From assembly GCF_023821985.2 (NCBI RefSeq), contig NZ_CP098805.1, positions 3,038,001-3,102,000 on the forward strand: a stretch of DNA of 64,000 bases. Direction: 5' to 3'. The notes below the pieces were generated by a model. That model had not been told where the DNA came from. It ran no database searches and saw only the letters and a program-made list of their open reading frames with translations. This document shows, one piece after another, positions 4,030 to 5,831 of this stretch. Numbering within the stretch: the first letter of the stretch is position 1; every line of letters starts with the position of its first letter. A program made the position numbers and the translations under genes. This stretch comes from Dyadobacter chenhuakuii (GTDB lineage: Bacteria > Bacteroidota > Bacteroidia > Cytophagales > Spirosomataceae).

Positions 4030-4064
4030 CTTTGAAATTCGAGCGCATGGAAGTATCTTGCGCT

Positions 4065-5831
4065 ATGGATAATTTCGTTGTCTCGGCCAGAAAGTATCGT
4101 CCCGTCACTTTCGACTCGGTGGTTGGCCAGTCACACATCACTACAACTTTAAAAAACGCAATCCGCACCAATCACCTGGCGCAGGCTTTCCTTTTTTGCG
4201 GGCCGCGAGGGGTTGGAAAAACAACTTGCGCAAGGATCTTAGCCAAAACCATCAACTGCCAGAACCTTGGCGACGATGTGGAAGCGTGCGGCGAATGCGA
4301 ATCTTGTGTCAGTTTTCAAAACAATGCATCATTCAACATTCATGAGCTGGATGCTGCTTCCAATAACTCCGTTGAAGATATCCGTAACCTGATAGACCAG
4401 GTTCGTTACCCGCCTCAAACCGGGAAATACAAAATCTATATTATTGATGAGGTGCACATGCTTTCGCAAGCTGCCTTCAATGCATTTTTGAAAACGTTGG
4501 AAGAACCGCCTGGTTACGCCATTTTTATCCTGGCGACCACGGAAAAGCATAAAATTCTGCCAACCATTCTTTCACGCTGCCAGATCTTCGATTTCAACCG
4601 CATTCAACCGAAAGACATTGCTTATCACTTGTCAGATATCGCGCAGAAAGAGGGTATCGAAACAGAAAAAGAAGCATTGGAGCTGATCGGCCAGAAGGCT
4701 GATGGCGGTCTTCGGGATGCGCTTTCGATGTTTGACCTGAATGTGACATTTTCGACAGATAACAAGCTTACTTATGAAGCTGTGCTGGAAAATCTGCACA
4801 TTCTGGACTACGATTATTATTTCAAAATCACAGATGCGCTGACTTCGGGCAGCATTGCCCGCTCGCTGGTTTTATTTGATGAAATTTTGAGAAAAGGCTT
4901 TGACGGTCATTTGTTCGTGGTTGGCCTTTTGGAACATTTTCGGAATCTCCTGGTCTGCAAGGACCCGCAAACTGTCACGCTTTTGCAGGTTTCGGAATCA
5001 GCGGAACGGAAATATCAGCAGCAGTCGGCATTGGCGGATATGAGCTTTTTGTTGTCTGCGCTGAGCATTGCCAGCCAGTGTGATATCAATTATAAATCGG
5101 CCAAAAACCAGCGGTTGCATGTGGAGCTTTGTTTGATGAAGCTCGCCAATCTGCCCCATGTTCTTCAACTTTCTTCTCTTGCCGCCGTTGATGAAACGGC
5201 AAAAAAAAAAGTTGAGCCTGAGTTAAAACCTTTAAATACTGCCCCTGCAACGCCCATTGAAACGCCCAGCAATGGTTTGTCCTTAAATGGAAATCATACC
5301 GAGGCTCCGGCGCGCGTTGCACAGCCAGTTGCACAGGCCCCTTCGCGTCTCAAAAATACGATTGCATTGAGTCCTACAGCGGCGGTTGCAGAGACAGCAG
5401 TTAAAGAAAAGCCAAGTAGTGAGGTGGAGAATGGCTATGCGGCCTCGCAAACCAATGTAAGAAAAGAGGCACTTACATTCGAAACGCTGCAAACGCATTG
5501 GTATGAATTCGCCGAAAAGCGAAGGATAGCAGGTAACTCCACGACGGAAGAAATCAGTTTGAACAAAGAATTCAAACTGGAAGGCACGAGCATTGAAATC
5601 GCTTTGGACAACACGCACCAGTTGGAAGCAATGGCGAATGTGCGTTATGAACTGCTAACCTATCTCAAAAGTCGCATTGATGCACCGAGGCTGGAAATAA
5701 ACCCGCGCGTGGCGCCGCAGGAAGTGAACAGGCTTCCTTACACCCCGGCAGAAAAATTCAATTTCATGGCGGAGAAGAATCCGTATCTGCTGGAATTGAA
5801 ACAAGCTTTGGGATTAGATGTAGATTTCTAA
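4065..5831 (+). CDS. dnaX: DNA polymerase III subunit gamma/tau
   Basis: This is the clamp-loader ATPase of the replicase, 588 residues from the ATG at 4065. That start gives the conserved MDNFVVSARKYRP; two upstream starts at 4032 and 4047 are less likely. Walker A GPRGVGKTT has K52, zinc-binding cysteines follow in CGECESC, and the Walker B region is DEVHM (D128, E129). Domains I-III end near residue 375, followed by a low-complexity linker and a tau-specific C-terminal region. At the end of domain III is a run of ten adenines (5201-5210), and both shifted frames terminate within 16 nt after it. A gamma-like short form is therefore likely (see the separate entry). The gene is convergent with coaE. 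Confidence 0.96.
   Translation: MDNFVVSARKYRPVTFDSVVGQSHITTTLKNAIRTNHLAQAFLFCGPRGVGKTTCARILAKTINCQNLGDDVEACGECESCVSFQNNASFNIHELDAASNNSVEDIRNLIDQVRYPPQTGKYKIYIIDEVHMLSQAAFNAFLKTLEEPPGYAIFILATTEKHKILPTILSRCQIFDFNRIQPKDIAYHLSDIAQKEGIETEKEALELIGQKADGGLRDALSMFDLNVTFSTDNKLTYEAVLENLHILDYDYYFKITDALTSGSIARSLVLFDEILRKGFDGHLFVVGLLEHFRNLLVCKDPQTVTLLQVSESAERKYQQQSALADMSFLLSALSIASQCDINYKSAKNQRLHVELCLMKLANLPHVLQLSSLAAVDETAKKKVEPELKPLNTAPATPIETPSNGLSLNGNHTEAPARVAQPVAQAPSRLKNTIALSPTAAVAETAVKEKPSSEVENGYAASQTNVRKEALTFETLQTHWYEFAEKRRIAGNSTTEEISLNKEFKLEGTSIEIALDNTHQLEAMANVRYELLTYLKSRIDAPRLEINPRVAPQEVNRLPYTPAEKFNFMAEKNPYLLELKQALGLDVDF
5201..5210 (+). other. A10 slippage tract inside dnaX
   Basis: Ten consecutive A residues lie in frame as gcA AAA AAA AAA gtt. 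In the -1 frame the next codons are AGT TGA (stop at 5213-5215). In the +1 frame they are TTG AGC CTG AGT TAA (stop at 5224-5226). Slippage in either direction would give a product of about 383-386 residues covering the clamp-loader domains I-III. No obvious downstream stem-loop or upstream Shine-Dalgarno-like stimulator is visible, which favours transcriptional slippage over ribosomal frameshifting. Confidence 0.65.

Follow-up and report, generated by a model that had tools for sequence, protein, structure and literature searches.

dnaX is an essential gene of replication, and in E. coli −1 programmed ribosomal frameshifting allows this one gene to give both tau and gamma. Whether and how a dnaX gene of Dyadobacter chenhuakuii makes the same two proteins is the question raised by a homopolymer within the 64,000-nucleotide stretch of DNA analysed here (the window). 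The gene lies on the forward strand, with a GH16-like open reading frame upstream and a coaE-like one downstream on the opposite strand, both named from a reading of their translations only. Its tau reading frame occupies positions 4065-5831 and encodes 588 residues from the ATG at 4065, the listed open reading frame (4032-5831) opening at the TTG at 4032. The identity of the gene was established by a TIGR02397 (dnaX_nterm) score of 428 bits against a cut-off of 250 and by Pfam clamp-loader domains, among them DNA_pol3_gamma3 at residues 250-374 of the 599-residue reading; the closest solved chains in the PDB are those of E. coli tau/gamma (E 1e-68). Just past the end of clamp-loader domain III (residue 374 of the same reading), the letters give a run of ten A at 5201-5210, flanked by C5200 and G5211, which we consider a putative slippage tract. 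The part specific to tau, consisting of the linker and the tau C-terminal domain, follows at 5211-5831.

The dnaX frame crosses the tract as ACG GCA AAA AAA AAA GTT GAG, the codon GCA spanning 5199-5201. An mRNA with one extra A would be read as ...AGT TGA and end at the TGA at 5213-5215, giving a gamma-like product of 383 residues. With one A fewer, reading would proceed as ...AAG TTG AGC CTG AGT TAA and end at the TAA at 5224-5226 after 386 residues; the same TAA would end an mRNA with two more A. An earlier note on this DNA had placed the run at the end of the clamp-loader domains, listed the two out-of-frame stops and given product sizes of 383-386 residues against 588 for tau, all of which was borne out by the letters, the Pfam match and translation from the ATG at 4065. 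The same note saw no stimulatory elements. This holds for elements of the E. coli type: no SD-like string is present at 5180-5200, despite the in-phase A_AAA_AAA in the run, and no stable downstream fold or stem-loop was found at 5211-5270 (−3.9 kcal/mol; most shuffles fold better, z +0.93). It does not hold for the sequence directly upstream, where a hairpin adjoins the run.

This hairpin, at 5184-5200, is a perfect 6-bp inverted repeat, GCCGTT-GATGA-AACGGC, located directly 5' of the A10 tract. The 5' arm (5184-5189) is the perfect complement of the 3' arm (5195-5200), the loop GATGA takes up 5190-5194, and no spacer separates the 3' arm from the run. The RNA fold of 5184-5213 reaches −9.7 kcal/mol, and none of 200 shuffles was as good. 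All six pairs are kept in 51 of 52 Dyadobacter-type loci, and the remaining one (L048) keeps five. Changes on both sides of a pair were found in three relatives (T-A to C-G in L038 and in L043, T-A to A-T in L083), and the compensatory pair in L038 costs two amino-acid changes. Across the seven distinct sequences, 97.6% of pairs are standard and the covariation score is 0.270 versus 0.088 for shuffled alignments, 3 of 500 of which scored as high; slid versions of the hairpin reached 0.087 at most. A second, unrelated hairpin, CTCTATCA-loop-TGATGGAG, adjoins the run in Flavobacteriaceae-like loci and covaries too (L203, L306). It was tabulated for 14 such loci, of which L307 keeps six of eight pairs; row fifteen of the table, L311, differs in sequence and has six pairs. 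On these sequence data, the Dyadobacter hairpin is likely a stimulatory element.

We examined conservation within the genus in 48 Dyadobacter genomes, all of which contain dnaX and all of which were read. In 47 of them the run is exactly ten A in the same codons and the TGA is in the same place, while the position of the TAA shifts between index 4 and 10 codons past the run. Because the 6.08-Mb genome contains seven exact A10 runs, both strands together, and yet the same codons hold the run in 47 of the 48 genomes, its occurrence in dnaX is not due to chance. The codon alignment of the 47 A10 genomes has 276 degenerate codons whose amino acid is kept in >90% of genomes. Seven of these are free of synonymous change, and every one falls inside the nine codons GCC GTT GAT GAA ACG GCA AAA AAA AAA, which hold the hairpin and the run. 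The most conserved 8-codon window lies in this stretch as well (mean homozygosity 0.989, versus 0.693 for the best window outside it), and in the alignment conservation sets in sharply at the first base of the inverted repeat, right after a variable codon. All 141 lysine codons of the run are AAA, compared with 619 AAA and 237 AAG upstream in the same genes. The synonymous G changes that the earlier note proposed to look for, as breaks of the run in relatives, are thus absent from the A10 genomes of the genus. The remaining genome, G032 (L048), is alone in the genus in having a run of eight A together with a broken first stem pair. Because of the A8, its TGA is in frame, so that the DNA templates gamma and the tau part is found in another frame; the locus may represent either a real flip inside the genus or an assembly error.

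To cover a wider range, 288 loci were collected and two duplicates removed, leaving 286 Bacteroidota dnaX loci, of which those outside the genus were hand-picked across genera and families. The survey comprises 48 loci of the genus, 40 + 2 others of the family, 58 representing 19 further families of the order, 60 from a draw across the phylum and 78 named loci (80 were kept out of 593 and 78 used). dnaX had been matched in 213 of 222 genomes of the family (E 1e-60), 125 of 128 of the order and 146 of 148 of the phylum draw (E 1e-40). A run of at least nine A is present in 233 of the 286 loci: 47/48 in the genus, 28/40 and 2/2 in the rest of the family, 51/58 in the order, 30/31 in the same class, 14/29 in other classes and 61/78 among the named loci, whose run bearers include Pedobacter, Mucilaginibacter, Hymenobacter, Rufibacter, Chitinophaga, Sphingobacterium, Aquimarina and several Bacteroidales. 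Exactly ten A were found in 190 loci, nine in 27 and eleven in 14; two unusually long tracts, A13 in L317 and A12 in L298, make up the rest. The run is absent from three Bacteroides/Bacteroidaceae loci (L284, L290, L295) and from 15 of the 29 loci of other classes, where the loci lacking it are on average richer in G+C (0.56 vs 0.45).

Frames could be called at 231 of the run-bearing loci, with L311 and L317 set aside as unclear and frames that ran off the fetched sequence without a stop counted as open. The DNA templates tau at 171 loci; at 56, tau would require one A more and at four, one A fewer. In these 60 reversed loci gamma is templated and tau needs a shift, and a profile of tau C-termini recognises the out-of-frame part at all of them except L231. 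At 178 of the 231 loci (150 of the 184 that do not belong to the genus), both unused frames reach a stop within seven codons, compared with a control fraction of 0.13 in the same genes. The stop is nearer than in the control in all four combinations of frame and architecture (p 2.5e-39 to 1.7e-13; 185 loci, with the genus represented by L001 only). The conservation in relatives that the earlier note had suggested as a check was found for the run, at 51 of the 58 loci from other families of the order, and for the flanking stops, in both frames. The two architectures occur together in 12 of the 50 families sampled. A FastTree tree gives at least 34 architecture changes among the A-run loci, a count that rests on ≤130 residues without a comparison to shuffled labels, and for this reason we prefer the within-family counts.

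Hairpins adjoining the run appear to extend, on average and in varied sequences, across the phylum. In the 24 nt before the run, the mean MFE is −8.2 in the genus (48 loci, L048 included), −6.7 in the rest of the family (30), −4.5 in the rest of the order (51) and −4.5 in the rest of the phylum (44). In all four sets this is lower than the background at offsets of 30-150 nt upstream, where means range from −1.8 to −2.7. We compared the three non-genus sets, after removal of redundancy (family 29, order 51 and phylum 36 loci), with synonymous recodings (z −3.8, −5.0 and −3.4, respectively; none of 200 recodings as low) and with versions in which the arms had been swapped (z −5.2, −6.7 and −4.0). 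Six upstream control windows gave z of −1.3, −0.8, −3.5, −1.3, −1.0 and +1.1, one of them not flat. Only 17 of 116 single loci reached p<0.05. The arm-swap test backs a hairpin on average and weakly for single loci, because 3' arms rich in purines find numerous pairing partners. The 61 named run loci, fetched after the test had been designed, gave −4.77 versus a null of −2.63 (z −9.9, redundancy not removed).

The fold is at or below −4 kcal in 135 of 186 loci, with the last paired base 0-4 nt from the run in 116 of the 135, and it is seen in both architectures (−5.14 in 124 tau-templated and −4.44 in 60 reversed loci). Other A10 sites of the genus, 26 distinct sites from 30 loci, average −1.28, with one at −9.0. 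Loci without the run give −4.33 at the typical distance; these 52 loci are not matched for composition and include ribosomal-type loci, so that they are not a clean control and their value warns against reading much into the absolute MFE level. Behind the run, the sets of loci show no immediate dip, and 21-48 nt downstream the folding energies of the genus and family sets are somewhat lower, with parts at −3.2 to −4.0. An Rfam search with L001 and 11 ribosomal-type loci yielded nothing useful, the one match being below the gathering score (E 0.44).

These ribosomal-type loci belong to five genera of the same family (g2, g3, g11, g12 and g24). They lack a long run and carry GGAGG at a constant distance before an in-phase G_GGA_AAG or A_AAA_AAG, as in an E. 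coli-like dnaX frameshift site (L049-L054, L062, L063, L069, L087 and L088). Within genus g3, L051, L053 and L054 have a stop in frame right past the heptamer, and L052 is tau-templated. One more run-less locus of the family, L070, has neither GGAGG nor heptamer. According to the parts of the source covered, SD sequences are not read by the ribosomes of Bacteroidia, in which bS21, bS18 and bS6 hide the anti-SD (PMC9976891). We considered that loss of bS21 Tyr54 might free the anti-SD in the GGAGG genera. No such loss was seen: 10 of 10 matched genomes of this type have Tyr54, with G091 giving no bS21 match, and so do 15 of 15 A-run genomes.

Based on these findings, the best reading of the sequences is that dnaX is a programmed slippage gene in the studied Dyadobacter and in most of the Bacteroidia loci read, and we think it likely that hairpin-assisted transcriptional slippage makes tau and gamma from it. 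RNA polymerase would copy GCCGUUGAUGAAACGGC and then the ten A. Once all ten have been made, the RNA:DNA hybrid of ~9-10 bp would consist entirely of rA:dT, and the base of the hairpin would be positioned at the upstream edge of the hybrid, inside the RNA exit channel. The hairpin would close as in an intrinsic terminator, straining or melting the upstream hybrid and favouring realignment on the homopolymer, and part of the mRNA would end up with more or fewer A. Transcripts with ten A or ten plus 3n would encode tau (588 residues), while other lengths would lead at once to the TGA or TAA and to a gamma-like protein of ~383 or 386 residues comprising domains I-III. Both forms, in some tau:gamma ratio, would presumably enter the clamp loader. 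In the covered parts of a review, bacterial RNA polymerase is described as having a 9-10 bp hybrid and slipping at tracts of nine A or T (PMC5009743).

The same proteins might be produced by the ribosome, through a −1 frameshift on A_AAA_AAA in the run that would yield gamma (tau in the case of the reversed genes) and be stimulated by the hairpin or by SD-like strings. Such a shift would also serve the direction needed by the 56 reversed loci that require +1 nt, and the five genera with GGAGG and an in-frame heptamer (11 loci) demonstrate the arrangement within the same family. SD-like strings are moreover commoner before the run (30 of 185 loci vs 17 of 555 control windows), either as part of hairpin arms or as remnants or precursors of ribosomal sites. 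However, a heptamer needs 7 nt and ten A are kept, which is why we count the conserved run length in favour of slippage; likewise, a pure −1 ribosomal site needs a stop in one unused frame only, whereas both frames show an enrichment of stops. At four reversed loci the opposite direction is required, the run of the studied gene has no stable fold downstream, and the ribosomes of Bacteroidia are the ones reported above as not reading SD. Judging from ribosome footprints as generally known, a spacer-less hairpin would sit inside the ribosome when the run occupies the P and A sites. Since the hairpin base touches an A10 of hybrid length and the hairpin would lie inside a decoding ribosome, we favour hairpin-assisted slippage and regard the ribosomal shift as unlikely. 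The phase of the run alone excludes nothing: its phase independence had been considered as proof against the ribosome and was dropped, because any A10 phase holds an in-phase A_AAA_AAA.

Frame differences between loci could in principle reflect slipped-strand mispairing at the DNA level, that is, phase variation, or sequencing error. Homopolymers mutate and get misread, and lengths do differ, between L048 (A8) and the rest of its genus and between L060 (A9) and L061 (A10) of a single genus. Yet the reversed architecture fills every locus read of some families (f18, 5/5; f17, 3/3), 47 of the 56 loci that need one more A have exactly ten, with an in-frame stop soon past them, and the gene concerned is an essential one; we therefore hold this explanation to be very improbable. 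It is scarcely credible, finally, that the run merely encodes a lysine-rich linker and that slippage is harmless noise. Any phase of A10 does encode two or three lysines, but AAG is missing from the 141 run lysine codons of the genus versus 237 of 856 upstream, 60 loci stop in frame soon past the run, and the hairpin covaries in L038 despite the two amino-acid changes.

Hairpin-assisted slippage would place the gene close to dnaX of Thermus thermophilus (A9; Larsen 2000), the experimental precedent for programmed transcriptional slippage in the covered parts of the sources (PMC5009743, PMC1088944). The two genes share a single tau open reading frame, a run of at least nine A past the clamp-loader part (after domain III in Dyadobacter) and near stops in both other frames. 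In T. thermophilus gamma arises from length-variant mRNA, and the same is proposed for Dyadobacter. Dyadobacter dnaX has ten A, an adjoining hairpin that covaries and relatives with gamma templated. Of the possibilities discussed, the Thermus-like slippage proposed by the earlier note is thus the best supported by the conserved run length, the stops enriched in both frames, the flips of the templated product and the lack of synonymous G in the genus.

The earlier note was not aware of a description for this group. This has to be revised in part: a GeneTack survey of 2013 reported 17 two-ORF dnaX genes, including genes with ten A from nine species, and suggested transcriptional slippage (PMC3711429, as far as covered). 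These genes share the A10 with Dyadobacter dnaX and are probably of the reversed kind, in which the templated frame stops soon past the run, as it does in 60 of the relatives read here. The templated frame of the studied gene instead continues into tau, and the parts of the survey covered do not mention an upstream hairpin. Because the survey seeks frame changes in DNA, it would miss tau-templated genes. Among the open-access literature matches listed, with subscription papers mostly outside this scope, there was no report of a hairpin at the dnaX A10 or of a phylum-wide pattern.

The closest counterpart of the hairpin is found in the Roseiflexus IS630 element (Penno 2015), in which, according to the covered parts of the source, an inverted repeat is 5'-adjacent to the slippage motif and folds into a hairpin within the exit channel, beside the hybrid (PMC5009743). 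Dyadobacter dnaX likewise has an inverted repeat directly 5' of the motif, in a terminator-like geometry of a stem followed by a homopolymer of hybrid length. As described there, the Roseiflexus motif differs in being a T5C5 heteropolymer in a mobile element that gives a one-base deletion only, whereas the Dyadobacter motif is an A10 in a housekeeping gene from which several product lengths would be expected. With E. coli dnaX, the Dyadobacter gene would share the outcome, tau and gamma from one gene, and five genera of its family have an E. coli-like site; it differs in having no SD-like sequence or stable downstream fold and in the upstream location of its structure.

We tentatively extend this reading to the phylum, as an idea that we find plausible without leaning towards it. 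Bacteroidota may possess a cis element dedicated to this purpose: a terminator-like hairpin of the nascent RNA that, together with the A10 it adjoins, programs RNA polymerase slippage in an essential replication gene where ribosomes cannot use an SD stimulator. Slippage would yield all three frames, which would make a one-base change of the tract nearly neutral and allow the templated product to flip between tau and gamma many times, and some lineages may have swapped the element for a ribosomal frameshift site. If correct, RNA polymerase slippage would serve a core replisome subunit throughout a phylum, and the conserved hairpin stimulating it would be of a type described, in the literature covered, for one insertion sequence. 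Annotation of DnaX would then easily go wrong in such genomes, where the gene could be taken for a broken one, for one encoding only tau or for one encoding a short DnaX. Within the family, the same two proteins would be obtained by polymerase slippage or by ribosomal frameshifting, with either product templated, and this natural series would make it possible to ask why bacteria keep gamma at all.

Two further arrangements were noticed. L284, L290 and L322, all of Bacteroidales, hold GGGGCGTAGC in the dnaX linker, and a −1 shift on its G run meets a TAG at once. L274, L303 and L315, from Bacteroidales/Bacteroidetes MAGs, have no A run and carry, soon past domain III, an in-frame TAG within the common motif TAGATTGC(A/T)AGG, which is perhaps another recoding signal.
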